Below are positions 164 to 23,127 of a stretch of 23,127 nucleotides of DNA, piece after piece. The notes beneath the pieces were generated by a model. The model made no database searches, was not told where the DNA came from, and saw only the letters and a list, made by a program, of their open reading frames with translations. Each line of letters opens with the position of its first letter. Positions within the stretch are counted from its first letter, which is position 1. Source of the DNA: a virus. The translations under genes and the position numbers were made by a program. The DNA is taken from the IMG/VR virus record IMGVR_UViG_3300030110_000176, positions 1 to 23,127 of that record, one strand, 5' to 3'.

Positions 164-1150
164 ATGGCTAATGCCACCGTTTCAAGGCTCGGTCTTGTAA
201 ACAATAGTGGAACAGGCTTTGATGCTCTGTTTCTTAAAACGTTTTCGGGTGAGATTCTAACTTCGTTTGCTGAAAATAATATTTTCAACGAAGCAATGCA
301 CACAGTTCGCCAAATCGAAAGCGGAAAATCAGCACAGTTTCCTGTATTAGGAACTGCGACTGCTGCCTACCATACAGTTGGTACACCTCTTGTTGGTGCA
401 AACCAAATCAAGGCAAATGAAAAGATCATAAATATTGATGATCTATTGATATCACAGGCTTTTGTGGCAGACATCGATAGTCTCAAGAATCACTATGATG
501 TTAGGCAAACCTATAGTTCCGAATTAGGAAAGGCTTTAGCCCGAACATACGATCAGAACGTTGCAAAGGTAATCGCAAATGCTTCTAGAGCTTCTACTAC
601 TCTTAGTGGTGGTAATGGAGGTGTTGTTCTAACTCTTGCTTCTGGTAATACTGCGTCAGCAAACGTTACTGGTGATGAGTTAGCAGCAGCTATCTACGAT
701 ATTGCTCAGACATTTGATGAAAGAGACATTCCTACTACAGATAGATTTGTAGTTTTACCACCTGCTGAGTATTACAAACTTGCAGAGTCAGCAACTAGAA
801 CAATAGACGTTGACTTTAACCCAGGCGGTAACGGTTCATTTGCATCAGGTAGAGTTCAGCAAATTGCTGGTATGCCTGTAATGATGAGCAACAACGTTCC
901 TCAATCAAACGTTTCATCTGAAGTTACTGGTACAAATAATAGCTACGCAGGTGACGATAGTAAAACTATTGGTTTAGTTTTCCATAAGTCGGCTGTAGGT
1001 ACTGTTAAATTAATGGACATGACTACTGAGATCTCTGGCTCTGACTATGGATTGATGTATCAAGGTACATTAATGGTTGCTAAATATGCTCTTGGTCATG
1101 GAATCCTAAGACCAGAAGCAGCAGCAACAATTAAATTATCTGCTTCCTAA
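164..1150 (+). CDS. Major capsid protein (T7 gp10-like)
   Basis: This 328-residue protein is the shell subunit of the icosahedral head. Its length is close to T7 gp10A (about 345 residues). The sequence has the feel of marine T7-like capsid proteins: an N-terminus MANATVSRLG, a helix-rich segment around residues 100-140 (HYDVRQTYSSELGKALARTYDQ) and a basic, glycine-rich C-terminal part. It lies directly before a strong terminator and tail tube genes, as in T7. The start at 164 matches the expected N-terminus, but there is no Shine-Dalgarno sequence before it (the preceding bases are CTAGAAAA). That is odd for what should be the most abundant virion protein. The scaffold and portal that normally precede it are instead on the opposite strand at the far end of the window. 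Confidence 0.93.
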   Translation: MANATVSRLGLVNNSGTGFDALFLKTFSGEILTSFAENNIFNEAMHTVRQIESGKSAQFPVLGTATAAYHTVGTPLVGANQIKANEKIINIDDLLISQAFVADIDSLKNHYDVRQTYSSELGKALARTYDQNVAKVIANASRASTTLSGGNGGVVLTLASGNTASANVTGDELAAAIYDIAQTFDERDIPTTDRFVVLPPAEYYKLAESATRTIDVDFNPGGNGSFASGRVQQIAGMPVMMSNNVPQSNVSSEVTGTNNSYAGDDSKTIGLVFHKSAVGTVKLMDMTTEISGSDYGLMYQGTLMVAKYALGHGILRPEAAATIKLSAS

Positions 1151-11800: not shown

Positions 11801-14365
11801 ACAAAATTAGGAAGAAGAAAAAAAGATACTTTACCTAAAGGAAATATAAAAAATCAAGTTGCAGGTACATTAAAAAGAATAGAAGAAGAAGAGTTATTAC
11901 CAAAACCAGAGGAGATAGCAAAAGCTATTAGTGACATGCAAACTAATGGTGATATAGAAGGTATATTGACATATGCAAGAAGAATGATGATACTTGCAGA
12001 TGATCCTAAACAAGCTGGTCGATTTATAGCAAAAGCACCTCTAACACAGGCACTATTTAAAACTGGCAGTATTGCTAACGAATTGTTTATAAATAGTATT
12101 TTATCTGCACCAGAAACACAGATAGTAAATACTATAGGTTCTTTATTTAACGTTGCTCTTGCACCTGTAGATTTATTTTTAGGTAGTGGTATAGGTGATG
12201 CTGCACTAAAAGGTAGAGCTATAAAAGAGTTTACAGCAATGTTTTCTACCTTAGAACAGAGTTTTATATTAGCAGGTAAGGCTCTTAGAGGTGGAGAAAG
12301 TATTATAGATCCACATCATATGTTTGGTGTACAAGATGGGATGAGAGGTAGAGGTAGATATGCTATGCAGTTTGAAAACGAAATGAGTAATCCATTTATT
12401 GCAACTATTAATTTACTTGGTTCAGTTGCAAGATTACCTTCTAGATTTCTTATAGCAGGTGACGAACTTATAAAAAACGTTGCATTTAGAAGTCATGTAA
12501 CAGGTGAATTTTATGAGCAAGCCTACAGGCAAGGTTTAAAGGGTGATGCTATGAAGAAATATATACAAGAAAAAACAAGTAGAGTATTTGATATTGTAGA
12601 AAAACATAAGTTTAGTGCAGATAAAAAGAACAAAGATATTTTAGAAGCATATTTAAGAGGTATAGATTTTGCACAGGACAAGACATTTACATCACAAATA
12701 GGTGGTAGTGGTATTACAGGTCTTGGTGGAGGTAAGTTTACAAATGATGTAGCAACAATAATGAAGCATCCAGTAATGAAACCTATAGCACCTTTTGTCA
12801 CTACACCAGTAAATATAGGTAAGAGTGTTATTAGAAGAGCAGGTGTATCTATACCAGGTCAACCTAAAATGAACGCTAGTTTAGGAAGAATATTAGCTGA
12901 ACATAATGACAGATTATTTAGTCCAGACATGGCTACAAGAATGAGAGCTAACGGAGAAAGTATTACAGGTGGTTTGTTAATAGGATCATTTGTAACGTTA
13001 GCAGTAGCAGCAGATAATCCAGAAGCACCCATAGCTTTAGTAGGAGGTGGTACTACATTTAATACTGAGAAGCGTAGACAGACACAATTTGGATTTAGAC
13101 AATTACCATATAGTTTTAGATTTTTAAAGAAAACAAACGGTATGTTTGGTGAAGTTGTAAGAAATGAAGATGGTAGTCCACAATATGTATATATAGATTT
13201 TATTTCTAGATTAGAACCTATAGCATCATTACTTATGCTTGCTTCTGACTTTGCAAATGTAAGTAAGTTTCAAGGTGAAGAAGATGATAGAAACCTAGCA
13301 GCTACATTACGTGTATTAGTAGGTAATAACTTAAGTAATAAATACTTTATACAAAGTGTAGGTAATTTATTTGATTTGATGAATAATCCTACCAGGTTAG
13401 AGTCCTGGTTAAGGCAACCTGCTAATTATATTGCAGCTATAGGTGCATATCCTATAGGTCTTAGAAAGAGTTTACGTAGGGCTAGAGGTGAAGATTGGAC
13501 ATCTACATTAGGTCAAGTTTATGAAAACGGTAAATTTATAGGTAAAGGTATGGGAATAGAAAAAGGTGAATTAGATCCACAAGAAATAAGTAAAGTAGAT
13601 GCTGGTAATTATGAAGAAGATTTTATGATGGGTATGTTTGAAGGTAATGATTTAGGAAGCCTTAAAACAAAACGCAAACCATTTTTAATGAACTCATTAG
13701 ACGTTTTAGGTACTATGGTTATGCACACAGTTAATAATGATTTAGCACCTAGATTAAATCCATTATCAGGCAAGCCATATAAAAACTTTGGAACGATACC
13801 TTTTGTTGGCGGTATTAGATACAGCGAAAGTAGTACAGATCCTAACGAAGTACTATTAAAAAAATATGATCTTAATTTAGTACCTGTATCAGATATTCTT
13901 AGTGAGAATAGTAGTATGGTTGTAAGTAATGTAAATTTAAAATCTAAAGAACTACATACATTAGAAAATCTTACATCCAGTATAAAAATAGATTCACCTT
14001 ACGGAAATAATTTACAATTTAACCAGGCATTGTATAAGTTACAGCAGACTACAGAATTTAAAACATTTATGAAAAACTTTAATACACCCCAAGATGATAG
14101 ATTTCCTGATAATGAGTCATATGTAGAGTTTCAAAATCAACAAAGAAGATATATGAACAATATGATAAATCGACTTTATAGAGCCTACAAAGAACAGGCA
14201 GTTAATGTTTTAATAGATAGAAAGCGTGGACTTTTATCAAATGACTTTTATGATAGGGTTGAAGCTGGTAATAATCGTGAACGCTTACGTATTATGAACG
14301 AGCAATCAACAAACGCTAGTGTACAAAATGTTAGCGGATTAGAAGATTTACTTAGGACTGTCTAA
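8882..14365 (+). CDS. Giant internal virion protein gp16-like with zincin metallopeptidase motif
   Basis: At 1827 residues this is the largest gene, in the position of T7 gp16 (1318 residues), the ejected inner-core protein. The N-terminal 60 residues are acidic and Asn-rich. Residues about 590-790 contain a zincin pattern: VLIHELWHSL gives HExxH at H610-E611-L612-W613-H614, and IDEFFA about 97 residues later supplies a likely third zinc ligand (E711), followed by a basic amphipathic helix. Hydrophobic segments occur near 1075-1110 and 1360-1380, and an AGDELIKNVAFRS motif lies between them, as in large polyvalent phage proteins. I see no transglycosylase motif here; that domain is in the preceding gene. 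A protease role in head maturation or in the host envelope is inferred. Confidence 0.85.
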   Translation: MTNSNPNFNPNIDETDSAESNIPPIEELVEENKQNIELNSLQTEGTDPKGKAIKNRRGRTIGYENDTEEGFDKDAFLDYKNNNYTNPQIGRSVVRNNESDVERSEFNQKDLFAEFEQNIRPLSILEKTFPSNLRFQLTQEERNKFAVRKEDGTIDHAATDRKFTTLGENKYARASVAGVANIPNELYKIGRYIGGDRTPDNLYALQDLGLELEDDKDDFAYQTTKFLAGFLLPYAGLSKTGKVLSGWKMLKGVNGLGLANPAFRSFVAGSVAETIAIDAYDENFFNFLIDIDTPYLDFAKPLFEVLAADETRTEDLGTAKLRQFLAGGIFGEVLGYGGSKVAQKLILEPIGYGARATGNGALFLADQGSQVIRRTMDEFMPPTILSKEQIKSRTIQLLKDIKANPKRLEFFKKQIDILNNANVTETAGFVPKEMADEITELDRVAKRVEDLIVRGDLVYTEGALDFEPDADSMEYFTQKIFQELSEGTLNNQRLDDLLRQQPLLTFKQSKEQSFTRVSERIEGLRSYRGIERTERYLNNLARDRVIGLEEVDEIRDFLNFIGREAFDDIVLEQDATLSRATLGNYNFNKSLIKLRNTTIKEGRMSEVLIHELWHSLSRNLPDKQLRKLTGEFARARNKFLQTHEAGKRAFIAKTSIQEMQVIKNLEAFNQPGRITSPVKVTEANFNRLASKHYDKEFKFVGDSYQFLNIDEFFAVNMTKMFEDYALELETLAPKGTFKYITQIVSEMFRDTLASIRSVLGLEQTKNIFNMYKRRMFKQRLSNYPLEFRNLDKMPTELEATLNAKMPGDKGFKRQRIKARFNRNLYGDGQEITIAERVADNLLDLDPKAPFRMTHAETIGYAHGELPEHVYKDIVAAAGAMNTGNPTKRLRVKLLRALNLQKEIIGNMKTNIHELEKYALTGSQIPQEIIDEVALDSYRWIKFNTPTKKVVSEVAGTLDAIKLVGKEPPEGAISTKLGRRKKDTLPKGNIKNQVAGTLKRIEEEELLPKPEEIAKAISDMQTNGDIEGILTYARRMMILADDPKQAGRFIAKAPLTQALFKTGSIANELFINSILSAPETQIVNTIGSLFNVALAPVDLFLGSGIGDAALKGRAIKEFTAMFSTLEQSFILAGKALRGGESIIDPHHMFGVQDGMRGRGRYAMQFENEMSNPFIATINLLGSVARLPSRFLIAGDELIKNVAFRSHVTGEFYEQAYRQGLKGDAMKKYIQEKTSRVFDIVEKHKFSADKKNKDILEAYLRGIDFAQDKTFTSQIGGSGITGLGGGKFTNDVATIMKHPVMKPIAPFVTTPVNIGKSVIRRAGVSIPGQPKMNASLGRILAEHNDRLFSPDMATRMRANGESITGGLLIGSFVTLAVAADNPEAPIALVGGGTTFNTEKRRQTQFGFRQLPYSFRFLKKTNGMFGEVVRNEDGSPQYVYIDFISRLEPIASLLMLASDFANVSKFQGEEDDRNLAATLRVLVGNNLSNKYFIQSVGNLFDLMNNPTRLESWLRQPANYIAAIGAYPIGLRKSLRRARGEDWTSTLGQVYENGKFIGKGMGIEKGELDPQEISKVDAGNYEEDFMMGMFEGNDLGSLKTKRKPFLMNSLDVLGTMVMHTVNNDLAPRLNPLSGKPYKNFGTIPFVGGIRYSESSTDPNEVLLKKYDLNLVPVSDILSENSSMVVSNVNLKSKELHTLENLTSSIKIDSPYGNNLQFNQALYKLQQTTEFKTFMKNFNTPQDDRFPDNESYVEFQNQQRRYMNNMINRLYRAYKEQAVNVLIDRKRGLLSNDFYDRVEAGNNRERLRIMNEQSTNASVQNVSGLEDLLRTV

Positions 14366-16440
14366 TGGCTACTAACACCACAGCTACAGCTACAAATCAT
14401 ACAGGAAACGGTAGTACTACTAACTTTGCAATATCTTTTTCTTTTTTAGCCAATGCAGAAATAGATGTAACAGTAGCAGGTGTATTAAAAACATTAGATA
14501 CTCATTATACGATTAGCGGATCTACAGTTACATTTACTTCTGGTAACACCCCTGCTAATGGTGCTGCTGTTAAATTTCAAAGAGATACAAATATAAGTGC
14601 AAAGAAGGTAGATTTTACAGATGGTAGTGTTTTAACAGAAACAGATCTTGATACAAATAGTGACCAGGTATTATTTGCTCAACAGGAGATTACAGATAAG
14701 TTAGGAGGAATAGAGGAGGGAGCAACCGCAGACCAGACAAATGCAGAAATAAAGACAGCTTACGAAGCAAACTCTGATACAAACGCATTTACTGACGCAG
14801 ATCACAACAAGTTAGATGGAATAGAAGCTAGTGCAACCGCAGATCAAACAGTAACAGAAATAAAAAGTCTTATAGCAGGTAGTCCTTTAGATGCTAGTCA
14901 TCTTGCAGCAAACTCAGTTGATAGTAGTGAACTGGCAGATGACGCAGTTACTACAAATAAAATACCTGATAACGCTGTAACAAATGCCAAAATTGCAGAT
15001 GCAGAACTAAAAACTTTGGCAGGTATGCAATCTGGTACAGCTTCTAAATTAGCTGACAGTACAGCTTTGACATCTGATATAGCAGACCTTAACCAGTTAG
15101 ATGGCTTACAAAAGGCAACAACTATAACTGATGATGATACTAAGTTTCCTACAAGTGGTGCAATCGTAGATTATGTAGCTGCACAGTTAGCACCTATTGG
15201 TGGTTTTGAAGCTATTGCAAATGAAAGTTCTTTTCCTAATACACAACCAGCATCAGGTGTAGTTATAAGTATTGCAGATGCAGGTGGAATGGCAGTTAGT
15301 AGTACTGGTACTGCATCTGGTCAAACAGTTGGTGGTACGACAGTAAATATATCTGGTATTGCTACAAACTTTCGTGGAGCTAGTGTTGCAGCAGGTATAA
15401 GATTTCTTGTCAGTTCTACAGGATCAGGTCAAAACTATACATATCACAAAGCAACTTTAAAAGAAGATGATCTGGTAAGTCTTAGTGGAGATATAAACGA
15501 CTTTTCAGAAAGATATAGGGTAGGTTCTTCTAACCCGACAACCAGTTTAGATAGTGGAGACTTGTTCTTTAATACAAGTACAGGCAAGTTGATGGTATAT
15601 AACGGAACCAATAGTACGTGGGAAGAAGCACAAAGTATTGGTAACTTTTTTATATCTACACTTAGCCCTGCCTTTGATGGCAGTACAGCAGACTTTACTA
15701 TTACTAATGCACCTACAAATGCACAACAGATATTATTAATAGTAGAAGGTGTCTTACAAAAACCTAATAGCGGTACATCTACACCGACAGAAGGTTTTGC
15801 TTTAAGTGGCAGTACAGTTAAGTTAGCTGCTGCACCTGCGGTTGGTGCAAGCTATCACGCAGTAGTAATGGGATCTACTGTAAACATTGGAACTCCAAGT
15901 GACAACACAGTAACAACAGCAATCCTACAAAACAATTCTGTATCAACAGGAAAAATACAAGACGAAGCTATAACACTTGCAAAATTAGAACATGGTACTT
16001 CTAGCAATAATGGTAAGTTTTTAAGAGCTAATAATGGTGCTGACCCTACTTTTGAGACATTAGACCTTACTGCTTTAAGTGCAGCAAACTTAACATCTGG
16101 AACTATACCTGACGCTAGATTCCCTGCTACTTTACCAGCAGCATCAGGAGCAAACTTAACTAATTTACCAGCAGGTAATTTAACAGGAACAGTAGCAGAT
16201 GCTAGGATTTCTACACTTACTGCATCAAAACTTACTGGTGCATTACCAGCTATTGATGGCTCTAGTTTGACAGGAGTTTCATCACAAAAAGCTGATGGTT
16301 GTATAACAGAAAACTCACAAACAATTTCAAATAATTACACTATGGGTACAAACAAGTCAGGAATTAGTGCAGGGCCTATAACTATAAATAGTGGGATAAC
16401 AGTTAACATTCCGTCAGGTTCACGCTATGTTATTGTCTAG
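14365..16440 (+). CDS. Tail fibre with T7 gp17-type N-terminal domain
   Basis: Residues about 1-115 match the tail-attachment domain of T7 gp17: a beta-rich opening, the pattern TISGSTVTFTSGNTPANGAAV, then VDFTDGSVLTETDLD before a helix. After it come two copies of a phage stalk repeat with DGIE(E/A)xATADQT (near residues 115 and 155), and SSELADDAVTTNKIPDNAV-type repeats that favour trimer formation. Toward the end, DLTALSAANLTSGTIPDARF and NLTGT-type units form a shaft, and the protein stops after GSRYVIV. At 691 residues it is longer than T7 gp17 (553). It starts by overlapping the gp16-like stop (TAATG) with AGGA upstream. The host receptor cannot be read from it. Confidence 0.9.
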   Translation: MATNTTATATNHTGNGSTTNFAISFSFLANAEIDVTVAGVLKTLDTHYTISGSTVTFTSGNTPANGAAVKFQRDTNISAKKVDFTDGSVLTETDLDTNSDQVLFAQQEITDKLGGIEEGATADQTNAEIKTAYEANSDTNAFTDADHNKLDGIEASATADQTVTEIKSLIAGSPLDASHLAANSVDSSELADDAVTTNKIPDNAVTNAKIADAELKTLAGMQSGTASKLADSTALTSDIADLNQLDGLQKATTITDDDTKFPTSGAIVDYVAAQLAPIGGFEAIANESSFPNTQPASGVVISIADAGGMAVSSTGTASGQTVGGTTVNISGIATNFRGASVAAGIRFLVSSTGSGQNYTYHKATLKEDDLVSLSGDINDFSERYRVGSSNPTTSLDSGDLFFNTSTGKLMVYNGTNSTWEEAQSIGNFFISTLSPAFDGSTADFTITNAPTNAQQILLIVEGVLQKPNSGTSTPTEGFALSGSTVKLAAAPAVGASYHAVVMGSTVNIGTPSDNTVTTAILQNNSVSTGKIQDEAITLAKLEHGTSSNNGKFLRANNGADPTFETLDLTALSAANLTSGTIPDARFPATLPAASGANLTNLPAGNLTGTVADARISTLTASKLTGALPAIDGSSLTGVSSQKADGCITENSQTISNNYTMGTNKSGISAGPITINSGITVNIPSGSRYVIV
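16068..16160 (+). repeat. Shaft repeat shared with the last fibre gene, copy 1
   Basis: This segment encodes DLTALSAANLTSGTIPDARF and continues FPATLPAASGANLTNLPAGN. The same protein segment recurs near 19039-19160 in the last large fibre gene with only a few substitutions, while the DNA has drifted mainly at third codon positions. It is a diverged in-frame duplication of a beta-structured shaft between two fibre genes 3 kb apart. Confidence 0.75.
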
Positions 16441-18034: not shown

Positions 18035-18567
18035 GTAGATTAGTTACCAACGCAATAAGAAGTACCGCAGCATCTAGTGATGCTATGACAATAGATAGTG
18101 CTGGCAAACCAGCATTTCCAAACGGAGGTGTTGGTAAAATTCTTCAAGTTGTTCACCAAAGCACAACAACCCATTTCAGCACATCTTCTACAAGTTATGT
18201 AGATACTGGTGTAACTGCTAATATTACCCCTACATCAAACACCAGTAAAATCTTAATAATGATAGATGCCCCTTGTCACATTATTAGAAGTAGTGGTTCA
18301 ACTTGGGAAATGTTTATAAAAATATTACGAGATAGCACAGGTATTTTTGGCGTAGATCCTACAAGTGGAAATTATCATTGTGGAATAGGCGGTTCTATTT
18401 CTTCTAATAGAGGTGTATTTTCTATTGTAAAACAATTTATAGATTCACCAGCTACAACAAGTCAAGTTACATACAAACTACAAGTAAAACATTATTCAAA
18501 CCAAACTTTAGATATTTCAAAGGGAAATGAAGCTTCACATATTACTTTAATGGAGGTAGCAGCGTAA
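18031..18567 (+). CDS. Small fibre or receptor-binding protein, EVAA-ended (copy 3)
   Basis: This 178-residue protein starts MSRLVTNAIRSTAASSDAMT with a short stem ending PNGGVGKILQVV. The body (STSSTSYVDTGVTANITPTS, then NTSKILIMID) aligns with the 17034 gene, and the end HITLMEVAA matches both other copies. It is likely another host-binding accessory fibre. The central region (residues 65-150) differs greatly from the other copies, as expected where receptor contact drives change. It starts in an ATGA overlap with the preceding gene. Its last codons carry the GGAGGT used by the next fibre gene. Confidence 0.8.
   Translation: MSRLVTNAIRSTAASSDAMTIDSAGKPAFPNGGVGKILQVVHQSTTTHFSTSSTSYVDTGVTANITPTSNTSKILIMIDAPCHIIRSSGSTWEMFIKILRDSTGIFGVDPTSGNYHCGIGGSISSNRGVFSIVKQFIDSPATTSQVTYKLQVKHYSNQTLDISKGNEASHITLMEVAA
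18133..18149 (+). repeat. 17-base exact repeat, copy 2 (stem-body junction)
   Basis: GGTAAAATTCTTCAAGT, identical to 17172-17188 and in the same reading frame (GKILQV), marks the stem-body junction of the 18031 gene. Confidence 0.8.
18551..18563 (+). promoter_or_regulatory. Shine-Dalgarno sequence inside the EVAA codons, copy 3
   Basis: TGGAGGTAGCAGC encodes EVAA at the end of the 18031 gene. GGAGG at 18552-18556 lies 10 bases before the ATG at 18567, within a working distance for translation of the last large fibre gene. Confidence 0.82.
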
Positions 18568-20207
18568 TGCCTTTAACACAAGTATCATCAAGACTTATAG
18601 AGGACACCCTGAGATATGTCTTAGGTGCTAGTGGTACAAACCACTATACGTTTACAGGTAAAGGTCTTACAGGTGCAGTCAATGACCCTACGTTAACACT
18701 TAGCAGAGGTCATACTTATATTTTTGAGAATAGATCAGGTGGACATCCTTTCTATATAAAAACCAGTATTGCTAATGGCGGTACGAATGATGCTTATAAC
18801 ACAGGAGTAACAAATAATGGTGGAGGTAATGGTACAGAAATAGTATTTACAGTACCGCATGATGCACCTGATACCTTGTACTACCAATGCTCAAGTCATA
18901 GCACTATGGCAGGGCAGTTAAGTATATCTGGTTCTGTAGCAGATGGAAGTATAACGGAATCTAAATTAGCTGATGATGCAGTAACAGCAGATAAGTTAGC
19001 TAACTCAATTAACTCAGCCATTGCAGCAAATACAGCAAAAGACCTTACAGCTTTAAGTGCAAGTAACCTTACATCAGGTACAGTTCCAGATGCTAGATTC
19101 CCTGCTACGTTACCTGCTGCTAGTGCAGCTAATTTAACAAACGTACCTGCTGCAAATATTACTGGTACACTACCAGCAATTAGTGGAGCAAACCTTACTG
19201 GTATATCTACTACCCCTGCTGACGGAAGTATTACGCAAGCAAAACTAAACTTTCCAGTTGCTAATCGTAATTTAATAATCAACGGAGCTATGCAAGTGGC
19301 TCAACGTGGTACGTCATCTACATCTACTGGCTATCAAACTGTCGATAGGTTTGTAGGAGATCATGGAAGTACAGATGAAGCACCAACCTATGCACAAGTT
19401 GATGTTGTTAGTGGAACTACACCTTACACATTAGGTTTTAGAAAGGCATTTAAAATTACAAACGGAAACCAGACAAATGGTTTTGGTGCTGGTGATTCTT
19501 TAAGAGTTGACACTAAACTTGAAGCACAAGATCTTGGTAATAGTGGTTGGAATTTTAAATCTTCATCAAGTTATATAACTTTATCCTATTGGGTTAAGTC
19601 AAGTGTCGCACAGGAATTTTTTGGTTACTTATACATAGACGACACTCCATATAAGTATGGGTGGTCTTTAGGTTCTCTATCTGCTGACACTTGGACGAAA
19701 ATAACAGTAACCATTCCTGGAAATAGCAACTTAGGGATTAATAATGATAATGGAGTTGGTTGTTGGCTAAATTTATTAGGTATTTGGGGTACAAACTTAA
19801 CAGCTAGTGATGCAGCACCAAATACATGGGCAGCTTGGGATGGAACAAAACGATCTACAGATCAAGCTACAACATGGTACACAACAAATGATGCAACCTT
19901 TGAAATTACAGGAGTTCAATTAGAAGTAGGCAGCGTGGCAACAGATTTTGAACACCTTAGCTATGGAGAGGATTTAGCTAAGTGTGAAAGGTATTTTCAT
20001 TATTTTGCAGGCGATACCTATGCTTGTGCACATGGTTCCAATAGCTTTACTATTTTTCCTTTTCATTGCAAAATGAGGGCTAATCCAACTGTAGCTGGAA
20101 CTTATACAAATGGTATAGGTAACTATTCTAATGACATGAGAGGTATGTATTATCATAGTGGTACAAGTGCTAATGCTAGTAATGTTTCATTTAGTGCGGA
20201 GCTTTAA
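18567..20207 (+). CDS. Large tail fibre with N-terminal cupredoxin-like domain
   Basis: This 546-residue protein has three parts. Residues about 15-120 resemble a cupredoxin: TLTLSRGHTYIFENRSGGHP followed by FYI, then YYQCSSHSTMAGQLSI. H60, C108, H111 and M114 stand where blue copper ligands would be. Residues about 125-225 are shaft repeats (ESKLADDAVTADKL, then DLTALSASNLTSGTVPDARF) shared with the 14365 fibre. The rest is a carbohydrate-binding-like head: NRNLIINGAMQVAQRGTS, later ITGVQLEVGSVATDFEHLSY and a CERYFHYF segment. Such heads in marine phages often end in AEL, as here (SFSAEL), so the gene looks complete. The GCGGAGCTT codons at the end give GGAG 8 bases before the next ATG. Host surface binding is likely; copper binding is untested. 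Confidence 0.87.
   Translation: MPLTQVSSRLIEDTLRYVLGASGTNHYTFTGKGLTGAVNDPTLTLSRGHTYIFENRSGGHPFYIKTSIANGGTNDAYNTGVTNNGGGNGTEIVFTVPHDAPDTLYYQCSSHSTMAGQLSISGSVADGSITESKLADDAVTADKLANSINSAIAANTAKDLTALSASNLTSGTVPDARFPATLPAASAANLTNVPAANITGTLPAISGANLTGISTTPADGSITQAKLNFPVANRNLIINGAMQVAQRGTSSTSTGYQTVDRFVGDHGSTDEAPTYAQVDVVSGTTPYTLGFRKAFKITNGNQTNGFGAGDSLRVDTKLEAQDLGNSGWNFKSSSSYITLSYWVKSSVAQEFFGYLYIDDTPYKYGWSLGSLSADTWTKITVTIPGNSNLGINNDNGVGCWLNLLGIWGTNLTASDAAPNTWAAWDGTKRSTDQATTWYTTNDATFEITGVQLEVGSVATDFEHLSYGEDLAKCERYFHYFAGDTYACAHGSNSFTIFPFHCKMRANPTVAGTYTNGIGNYSNDMRGMYYHSGTSANASNVSFSAEL
19039..19160 (+). repeat. Shaft repeat shared with the 14365 fibre gene, copy 2
   Basis: This segment encodes DLTALSASNLTSGTVPDARF and continues FPATLPAASAANLTNVPAAN, nearly the same as the segment at 16068-16160. 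It then adds NITGTLPAISGANLTGI, a further copy of the NLTGx unit. DNA identity is partial, with most differences at third positions. Confidence 0.75.
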
Positions 20208-20389: not shown

Positions 20390-20643
20390 TTACACTTCCA
20401 TTTCTTAAGAGCTAATCCTTTTCTTGTTAGCTTACCGCCTTTACTGGTAGCACCTTTAACACCTTTCATCCTGGCACAAAAAGATTTACGTCTTTTAGCA
20501 GCTTTACTACCAGGTTTTACTTTACCTGTTACTGGTGCTTTTAGGTTACTACCTGTTTCTCTATTTATTTTATCTCTACCTTTTTTAGTAAGACCACCAG
20601 TTTTACTTTTGTGTTCTTTGCGTAGCCTTACTGATTTAGCCAT
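20386..20643 (-). CDS. Small basic phage protein, 85 residues, with SFCARMKG motif
   Basis: The frame starts MAKSVRLRKEHKSKTGGLTK and has KPGSKAAKRRKSFCARMKG in its middle and LTRKGLALKKWKCN at its end. I recognise this as a small conserved protein of marine phages, I believe classed as DUF6321, with no proven role. It is very rich in lysine, arginine and glycine and has two cysteines in conserved positions (SFCAR and KWKC). It starts in a TAATG overlap with the scaffold gene, so it is translated with head assembly genes and might help package or coat DNA (inference). Its stop overlaps the stop of the opposing plus-strand gene. Confidence 0.85.
   Translation of the reverse strand: MAKSVRLRKEHKSKTGGLTKKGRDKINRETGSNLKAPVTGKVKPGSKAAKRRKSFCARMKGVKGATSKGGKLTRKGLALKKWKCN
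20393..20403 (+). repeat. Short direct repeat flanking the capsid-to-fibre block, right copy
   Basis: CACTTCCATTT, identical and in the same orientation as 48-58. It falls in the last codons of the 85-residue minus-strand gene, next to the point where the two transcription units meet. Confidence 0.3.
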
Positions 20644-21479
20644 TAATCAGATATACCAAAGACATTACTTTCAGCTAATCTTCTTTGCACTTCATGTTGA
20701 TAAGCTATATCTTTTTTATATCTAGGATCACTCATAGCAGCTACAACTTCTTGGTTAGATTTAAATACTTTTGTATTAGGTGTTGAAGATCCTCTACCAC
20801 CAATTAATCTAGGTTCTACACCCATAGCATTTCTATACCTGGTAAACATTTCTTGTACTGCAAGAGTAACTTTAGGTATGTTTCTTTTTTCAGCATCTAC
20901 AATTTTATCAAATTCTGTTAGTTCTTCTTTGTCAACATTACCATCCATCCATTGCAGCATTTCTTTGTACTTATCTTCACCACCTGCGATACCTACAATA
21001 TCTTCATACTCAGGAAAGCTAGGATCAGCAGCAACTTGTTCTGTACCTTCTTGTGGTTTTAAACCTGCTAGGTAACTATCAATAAGATTTCTAGGTAAAC
21101 CAGTAGCTTCTAGTTCTTTGTAATGCTCTTCTGAAATAGTACCGTTGTTTTCCTGGTAATACTTATTTATAGCAAAAGGATCAACGTCACTTTGTTCAAA
21201 CAGTTCTCCTAACTTTTCACCGTATTGTTGTTTTGCTAGTTCATAATTTACAGAACCATCTTCTTGATATTCAACTACATCTTCTGTAGCAGGTTCTTCT
21301 TTTGTTTTTGCAACATCACCTAACTTACCTTCTAGTTCTTTATAACTAGCAGCAAGAGCTTCAACGCTATCAAACTTGCCTAAGATCTTACCATCTTCAT
21401 TTTTGTTATCATCAGCAAATTTTTGTAGATCCTCTTGTGACATAGGAGGAGTTTCGTTTGACTGTAAGGATGCTTTCAT
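20643..21479 (-). CDS. Capsid assembly scaffold protein (T7 gp9-like)
   Basis: This 278-residue acidic protein matches the size and character of T7 gp9 (about 307 residues), the internal scaffold around which the procapsid forms and which leaves before DNA packaging. The N-terminal part has FADDNKNEDGKILGKFDSVE and ALAASYKELEGKLG. The C-terminal part (FKSNQEVVAAMSDPRYKKDI followed by AYQHEVQRRLAES) is the most conserved segment of the family and probably binds capsid subunits. It lies two small steps downstream of the portal, as in T7, but on the strand opposite to the capsid gene. No clear Shine-Dalgarno sequence precedes 21479; MSQEDLQ, 12 codons further in, is an alternative start. Confidence 0.9.
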   Translation of the reverse strand: MKASLQSNETPPMSQEDLQKFADDNKNEDGKILGKFDSVEALAASYKELEGKLGDVAKTKEEPATEDVVEYQEDGSVNYELAKQQYGEKLGELFEQSDVDPFAINKYYQENNGTISEEHYKELEATGLPRNLIDSYLAGLKPQEGTEQVAADPSFPEYEDIVGIAGGEDKYKEMLQWMDGNVDKEELTEFDKIVDAEKRNIPKVTLAVQEMFTRYRNAMGVEPRLIGGRGSSTPNTKVFKSNQEVVAAMSDPRYKKDIAYQHEVQRRLAESNVFGISD

Positions 21480-21485
21480 AATTAA

Positions 21486-21644
21486 TTAGCTATTAGTAAT
21501 AGTATTACCATGTGCAGTAACTTTTTCAACTGGTGTTGTAGGTTCTGGTGTATCGTTTACACCTAGACTACTTACAACTGCTACTTCTTCTTTAGTGTAG
21601 CGACCATTTTCATCACGTTTTTTAGATGTTTTTTTAGCTGGCAT
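21486..21644 (-). CDS. Small protein between portal and scaffold, 52 residues
   Basis: The frame reads MPAKKTSKKRDENGRYTKEE, then VAVVSSLGVNDTPEPTTPVE and ends KVTAHGNTITNS. It overlaps the portal stop by 11 bases and ends 6 bases before the scaffold start, filling the gap in a way typical of a real gene. The N-terminal half is basic with KRDENGRYT; the C-terminal half is Thr/Pro-rich and probably unstructured. Small genes of this kind between portal and scaffold occur in other marine podoviruses as far as I recall; no function is known. Confidence 0.65.
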   Translation of the reverse strand: MPAKKTSKKRDENGRYTKEEVAVVSSLGVNDTPEPTTPVEKVTAHGNTITNS

Positions 21645-23127
21645 TCGGTGTTACCTCGTTTTGTATTTGTTGAGCTTCCGCTTGATTTTTAGGATCTAAT
21701 AGTTTATGACCCTGTAATGCAGAAGGAGCTAGATCTTTTAAAAGTTGTTGTTGCTGTTCAGCTTGCAACTCTTGAGCTATCTCTTCTTTTGATTTTATCA
21801 AATTTAAAGTCTCAATACCAACACTATTAGCTAACCTTATAATCGCTTCGTCAATGTTCATGTACCTTCTCATAACATCTACACCTAGTGCTTGAGCTAT
21901 CGTACCTATAAACTCTATGAGTTTTGCTTTATCTGCATCCCTACCAAGACCATTTATACCTGTAACTATTTTAGGTCTAACTAATTTATCTGGTAGTTTT
22001 GGTGCTTTACCTGCTCTTATAAGTAGATGTAATTTTCTACGTAAATACTTAATTTGAAACTCACTACTTAATACAGAATAAATCCCACCTAAAGTAGCTT
22101 CTAAAGCATTACTCATTATTTGTATTTCAGTACTGGTTACACGTTCTGCATCCCTTTGTATGCTCTTAGTCATAAGGAAAGCATCTTCTAATCTTTTCTC
22201 TAACGTAGCTTTTACCCTTTCAGCTACAGCAAAATCATTAGCTTTATTAGTTTGTAGTGTAGATACATCAGTAGCAAGTCCTTCACGTACCGCACCATTA
22301 GGTGCTTGACTTACTGCCTTCGGTGAAGTTACACCATTAGGATTTATAAAATATATTGTACGTGCAGACGCAGCAGCACCTTCTACTATTGCTTGTGTTA
22401 ATGCTTCTAATGTAATTAGATCTCCTTTATATTCATTTACATAAGACGTACCATAATTAGTATCTGTTTGAGTCCAACGTAAAACTATAAAAGGTGATAC
22501 ATCAACAGGAGAAATGCCATCAGTACCAGGTATCTTTTCTCCTTTACATTCTTGAAACCATACATGATTATCACCTTCACGTTCTAGCTTTGTATAAATA
22601 TCTATTTCCGTACCATCCATAGATTCTGTATAGTTTTCTTTTTGTTTTATCTGTTCATAAAATTCTGGATCTAATGCTTTTGTAGATACAGATTCTTTTG
22701 TCACTACAGTTAAAATATTTCCTACTTCATCCCTTTGTACTACGTAGCGATCTAAATAATATACCTTTAATCCATCTTCTGTTATGTATAACAATACATT
22801 ACCTACTACTATTAAATGCTTTAGTGCTTCAAACATAGCTACTCTATCGTTGCTAGTTTCTATATCTGCCATGACTGCATTTTCTAAACCACGTAAACCT
22901 TTATCTATTTCTGCCATTATTTCTGTCTGACCACTTTTTTGCAGTTCTAGTTCATCAATTATTAATTTAAAGAATGGTGTGTTAGGTGGTATTAAAGCCA
23001 TTAACATTTTTGCAGCAAGGCTATTAGTACCAGCAGCACCCAACGCTTGCATTGGTGTTTTTATTTTTTGTTTCTTTGCAGAATTATTATTAAATAAACT
23101 AGGTATTGTTAACTTGGCACAGTCATC
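21634..23127 (-). CDS. Portal (head-tail connector) protein, T7 gp8-like, 5' end beyond the window
   Basis: The portal forms the ring through which DNA is packaged and to which the tail attaches. The frame stays open to the window edge. Residues upstream of the first internal Met include CAKLTIPSLF, which matches the N-terminal CAQYTIPSLF of T7 gp8, so the ATG at 23052 is not the real start and about 30 residues are missing. The 497 visible residues contain QALGAAGTNSLAAKMLMALI, FEALKHLIVVGNVLLY, YVVQRDEVGNIL, RDAERVTSTEIQ and a clip-region pattern LEATLGGIYSVLSSE, all shared with T7 gp8. The C-terminus is Gln-rich. Its last 11 bases overlap the next small gene. Its orientation is opposite to that of the capsid and tail genes. 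Confidence 0.95.
   Translation of the reverse strand, partial: DDCAKLTIPSLFNNNSAKKQKIKTPMQALGAAGTNSLAAKMLMALIPPNTPFFKLIIDELELQKSGQTEIMAEIDKGLRGLENAVMADIETSNDRVAMFEALKHLIVVGNVLLYITEDGLKVYYLDRYVVQRDEVGNILTVVTKESVSTKALDPEFYEQIKQKENYTESMDGTEIDIYTKLEREGDNHVWFQECKGEKIPGTDGISPVDVSPFIVLRWTQTDTNYGTSYVNEYKGDLITLEALTQAIVEGAAASARTIYFINPNGVTSPKAVSQAPNGAVREGLATDVSTLQTNKANDFAVAERVKATLEKRLEDAFLMTKSIQRDAERVTSTEIQIMSNALEATLGGIYSVLSSEFQIKYLRRKLHLLIRAGKAPKLPDKLVRPKIVTGINGLGRDADKAKLIEFIGTIAQALGVDVMRRYMNIDEAIIRLANSVGIETLNLIKSKEEIAQELQAEQQQQLLKDLAPSALQGHKLLDPKNQAEAQQIQNEVTPNAS

Follow-up and report, generated by a model that had tools for sequence, protein, structure and literature searches.

A cupredoxin domain with a predicted type 1 copper site in the N-terminal part of a phage tail fibre

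We describe a tail-fibre protein of a marine cyanobacterial phage. On balance, we take its N-terminal part to be a true cupredoxin whose type 1 (blue) copper site, of amicyanin spacing, is intact, and to serve as a joint at the virion-proximal end of the fibre. The gene resides in a window of 23,127 bases (the whole stretch of viral DNA that was analyzed), in which T7-like capsid, tail tube, nozzle and internal virion genes are followed by the fibre genes. Its 546-residue product (positions 18,567 to 20,207, plus strand, as are all features of this protein) yields matches to PHROG families 4492 and 677 and its relatives are annotated as tail fibres, in full agreement with the initial annotation, which had assigned the domain to such a protein. 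A lead of 13 residues (MPLTQVSSRLIED, 18,567 to 18,605), constant among near relatives, precedes the cupredoxin domain (residues 14-122, 18,606 to 18,932), and the distal fibre follows (residues 126-546, 18,942 to 20,204), which differs between relatives and whose phage matches are annotated as carbohydrate-binding or tail fibre. The nearest named phage with respect to the domain is the Prochlorococcus podovirus P-SCSP2 (89.5% identity).

The fold was assessed with an AlphaFold2 model calculated from 68 sequences, the alignment consisting of the window and the loci from our collection scans only. For residues 14-122 the model reached a pLDDT of 90 and a pTM of 0.82, and it presents a predicted Greek-key beta-sandwich that matches solved cupredoxins over most of the domain. 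The best 50 PDB matches returned by Foldseek were cupredoxins or multicopper-type proteins made of cupredoxin domains. With VIA-align, a cupredoxin domain of the copper nitrite reductase (CuNIR) from Hyphomicrobium (2dv6) scored best (Z 11.3, 96 residues aligned, 2.1 Å), followed by rusticyanin (2cal, Z 10.1) and then by laccase domains. A profile built from 23 relatives likewise retrieved CuNIR, plastocyanin, amicyanin, auracyanin and rusticyanin from the PDB, with the Cys-His-Met loops aligned, and the same kind of profile recovered the annotated plastocyanin of phage P-SSM2 as a positive control. An alignment profile was needed for this, as a single-sequence phmmer search against the PDB gave E values of 0.5-1 only and included antibody light chains among its matches. 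The cupredoxin-like domain originally proposed for the fibre N-terminus is thus borne out by profile, Foldseek and VIA-align comparisons alike. With 17.5 bits, the window domain alone stays below the Pfam cut-off for PF00127 (Copper-bind, 21.2 bits), which homologous copies in a P-SSM2 fibre protein (23.3) and in a Flavobacteriaceae protein (22.4) pass; judged by these scores, it is a diverged relative of PF00127, not a formal Pfam member. In a viral structure library, cyanophage proximal fibres and gp9 connectors were the best matches to the model. The same library also returned three short 'beta-sandwich' proteins of 124-169 amino acids (A0A481Z6J5, A0A481Z7Q7 and A0A481YVH3) from Pithovirus LCPAC and Marseillevirus LCMAC.

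The motifs GHPF and YYQCSSHSTM are present in the fibre reading frame as first described and supply the four predicted copper ligands. In the model, H60 (18,744 to 18,746) is located in the loop between strands 50-55 and 62-65, C108 (18,888 to 18,890) ends strand 103-108, and H111 (18,897 to 18,899) and M114 (18,906 to 18,908), the predicted second His and axial Met, reside in the loop that follows. Such a distribution over loops and strands is classical for a type 1 copper site. The predicted positions thus reproduce the type 1 order His...Cys-His-Met with its ligands on two loops, and the earlier proposal that these four residues fit a type 1 ligand set is upheld by their exact positions and by the strand topology of the model. 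The two-residue spacing between His and Met that had been pointed out as short is present as described but is not a defect: the loop of amicyanin is likewise Cys-x2-His-x2-Met, and the aligned PDB proteins 6hbe (CSIHPYM) and 9cck (CTLHPWM) also have it. The phage domain departs from blue copper proteins in the residue after the first His, which is Pro where the canonical residue is Asn. A chance occurrence of the motif was rejected: the 7,398 residues that the window encodes contain a single C-x2-H-x2-M, where shuffled sequences lead to an expectation of 0.004 (0.0008 when an upstream His at the right distance is included), and its conservation is far beyond chance. A disulfide within the domain was likewise rejected, since the domain contains only one Cys; C108 is in fact the single Cys among the first 398 residues of the fibre.

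All loci fetched yielded 439 copies of the domain, which fell into 113 clusters at 70% identity. The four ligands are intact in 87 of these and Met is replaced by Gln in three, the remainder being partial copies or losses. An axial Gln is a natural type 1 variant, known from blue copper proteins of the stellacyanin type. The ligands are kept in relatives with as little as 29% identity, and in alignments A1 and A5 they are invariant or nearly so (H60 strictly invariant) where most other positions of the domain vary. Alignment A1 proved too heterogeneous for scanning with patterns, and sub-alignments A2-A4 were used instead. The A2 and A3 patterns themselves include ligand residues; a scan with the N-terminal half as query was added, and copies outside those patterns were recounted. 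Among the 36 clusters obtained in this way, 29 were intact, one carried Gln, two were partial and four had none of the ligands. Independent loss would lead to only 0.02 clusters without any ligand (permutation p = 5e-5), a small test in which the four clusters are not fully independent, as they include two neighbouring copies of one protein (L091). Because four such clusters stand against an expectation of 0.02, the comparison shows that the putative ligand residues are retained or disappear together, which is the behaviour expected of a metal site.

These data bear directly on the possibility that the cupredoxin has been reused as a plain Ig-like beta-sandwich without any metal, the ligand residues persisting through descent or for reasons of packing. 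Phage tails frequently carry beta-sandwich modules, some tandem arrays include copies without ligands, and one such copy is still predicted to form a beta-sandwich, a prediction that used an alignment rich in ligand-bearing sequences. Against this, the ligands stay invariant where most other positions vary, losses are mostly all-or-none, as expected of a metal site abandoned as a unit, and the ligand-less copy is no longer closer to cupredoxins (best Z 5.2, rusticyanin) than to Ig domains (Z 5.7). Relatives that retain the fold and lack Cys and His had been named at the outset as the observation that would speak against a copper site; such copies proved to be few and mostly lacked all four ligands. 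We therefore consider a metal-free module quite improbable and return to the reading of the domain as an intact type 1 site.

The metal of the predicted site is quite likely copper. A set of two His, one Cys and an axial Met in which only Gln recurs as axial substitute is the type 1 copper signature, and the nearest folds and profiles are those of copper proteins. Both observations weigh against zinc, iron or several metals occupying the site in the virion with a role that would still be structural. Such an occupancy is distinctly unlikely, even though the identity of a metal cannot be told from sequence alone and iron-bearing tail fibres are known, T4 gp37 being the example cited in PMC11705849. 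Metal in tail fibres is not new in itself: iron at HxH sites is discussed in that paper, and the T4 gp37 sites and the proposed iron-binding fibres of marine phages share with the window protein a metal-binding site in a tail fibre. Those iron sites, however, are octahedral and His-only and sit at the tip of a trimeric fibre, in a fold unrelated to the phage cupredoxin.

The position of the domain in the virion can be approached through its relatives. When the fibres of near podovirus relatives (L013-L062) are compared, lead and domain are 78-100% identical, whereas the remainder of the fibre mostly cannot be aligned or shows local similarity only. A constant lead and cupredoxin combined with a swapped distal part is the pattern of a fixed anchor carrying exchangeable receptor-binding parts, as far as sequence comparison can tell. 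A tblastn search of 50,697 phage records found the domain in 347, of which 340 are named Synechococcus phage, Prochlorococcus phage or Cyanophage; for scale, a T4-like major capsid gene is present in 463 records with names of this kind. All three are record counts that include redundant isolates and reflect the sensitivity of a single query. In most of the matches listed, the domain resides on the gp9 baseplate connector. Residues 14-122 match the C-terminal domain of PHROG 677, the baseplate wedge tail fibre connector (E 8.9e-33, profile positions 305-410 of 412). The match is confined to this part, the window protein having its 13-residue lead in place of the gp9-like N-terminal part, while the ACG-2014d member of PHROG 677 has a T4 gp9/10 N-terminus. 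In cyanomyovirus gp9 the same domain is about 35-46% identical to that of the window (tblastn) and the ligands are kept in the sequences read, but the context is a T4-like baseplate and the annotation makes no mention of a copper site. In T4-like phages, gp9 is placed between the baseplate and the long fibre, and the anchor reading is thus also supported from this side. Taken together, modularity and the names of homologous genes point to a location of the domain at the virion end rather than at the host-contacting tip.

In the cyanopodovirus P-SCSP1u, fibre N-termini are docked and distal parts are flexible (PMC10575957). The P-SCSP1u fibre N-terminus is a jelly roll, so that its likeness to the window cupredoxin is one of analogy only. 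The counterpart of that fibre in the window is more likely the main tail fibre (14,365 to 16,440, plus strand), residues 1-111 of which match the N-termini of several PHROG tail-fibre families. Downstream of the cupredoxin-bearing fibre, the portal and scaffold genes are inverted (20,643 to 23,127, minus strand, versus 164 to 1,150, plus strand). This is unlike P-SCSP2, where portal and scaffold lie upstream of the capsid gene; the contigs of L025, L027, L032 and L050 share this usual order of the portal gene. In the contigs of L013 and L036 the portal likewise lies beyond the fibre and in opposite orientation to it, so that the inversion looks like a real lineage trait and not an assembly error.

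The domain also occurs in other protein contexts. P-SSM2 has two copies in one putative proximal fibre, one of them near its start, in addition to a separate annotated plastocyanin gene, and some giant proteins carry four or five copies in tandem. A 2,078-residue open frame with several cupredoxin copies (L254) was observed on the 189-kb contig QCLS01000003.1, deposited as a host genome under the title Prochlorococcus sp. AG-418-C09, which may represent a phage genome that entered an assembly made from a single cell. In Actinomycetia phage DSL-LC01 (L011:1541-2911) the domain follows a YHYH domain and in Synechococcus phage S-H9-1 (L010:803-2809) a subtilase domain. Relatives from cells include domains of secreted proteins of Flavobacteriaceae, which also carry DUF285 and Ig-like repeats, and, at a greater distance, Acidithiobacillus proteins resembling the blue copper proteins of that genus. 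A scan of plasmids found no match to the domain. Recent capture of a host plastocyanin gene is not favoured, as the nearest cell relatives by sequence, in a scan with one pattern that was not exhaustive, are the Flavobacteriaceae surface-protein domains.

In principle, a copper-bearing domain could serve the virion itself or act at the host. In the former case, copper on H60, C108, H111 and M114 would most likely lock the two ligand loops of the beta-sandwich; the contact of the fibre with the virion or with an adjacent tail protein would thereby gain a rigid and stable docking surface, and the distal part could still vary freely. In the latter case, the domain would dock to a surface or periplasmic protein of the host, or exchange electrons or copper with it, as the copper counterpart of an iron 'Trojan horse'. 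Type 1 copper sites usually serve electron transfer and expose a His, conservation extends to the ligands and not just to the fold, and a single host group is infected by most phages that carry the domain, all of which would suit a function at the host; iron in phage tail fibres with a proposed receptor role offers a precedent (PMC11705849). The domain of the podoviruses, however, is the constant N-terminal end of a fibre whose distal part is swapped, the gp9 copy is placed on a baseplate connector, and in marine Flavobacteriaceae the same domain stands at the end of secreted surface proteins for which no redox partner is obvious. We thus regard a host-side function as unlikely. The ideas in the initial annotation that the domain binds copper-stressed hosts or touches a host redox protein are weakened accordingly, while its suggestion of added stability fits best. 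A structural or docking role, rather than redox or receptor binding, nevertheless represents an even judgement.

The mature virion probably contains the bound copper. Against this stands the fact that phage proteins acquire their fold in the cytoplasm, which offers little free copper; loading would therefore have to draw on host copper or take place after lysis. In a more far-reaching version, which we consider very improbable, type 1 copper would be stoichiometric at the fibre joint of marine cyanophage tails and its state (occupied or empty, Cu(I) or Cu(II)) would alter docking or deployment, allowing redox or copper sensing or delivery of copper to the host surface.

With the PF00127 proteins amicyanin, plastocyanin and rusticyanin, the phage domain has the cupredoxin fold and the order His...Cys-His-Met in common, yet those are soluble electron carriers, whereas the phage domain is part of a virion fibre protein and its site is a predicted one. 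The CuNIR cupredoxin domains (2dv6, 6tfo, 6hbe), its best structural and profile matches, belong to an enzyme with a type 2 copper active site, which the phage domain does not possess. The open literature searched yielded no description of a cupredoxin that retains its blue-copper ligands and recurs as a virion module, an absence that is weak evidence given that subscription papers and preprints were outside the scope. By this assignment, domains so far annotated as hypothetical or just as gp9 acquire a name, and many marine viruses may, judging from the four ligands retained across hundreds of related virus tails, carry copper at the joint where the fibre is attached. If so, a virus joint would have been made from a protein family known for carrying electrons. 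Cyanophages rank among the most abundant viruses of the ocean, and should the majority of their tails carry a blue-copper site, virions would constitute a class of copper-containing particles in seawater.
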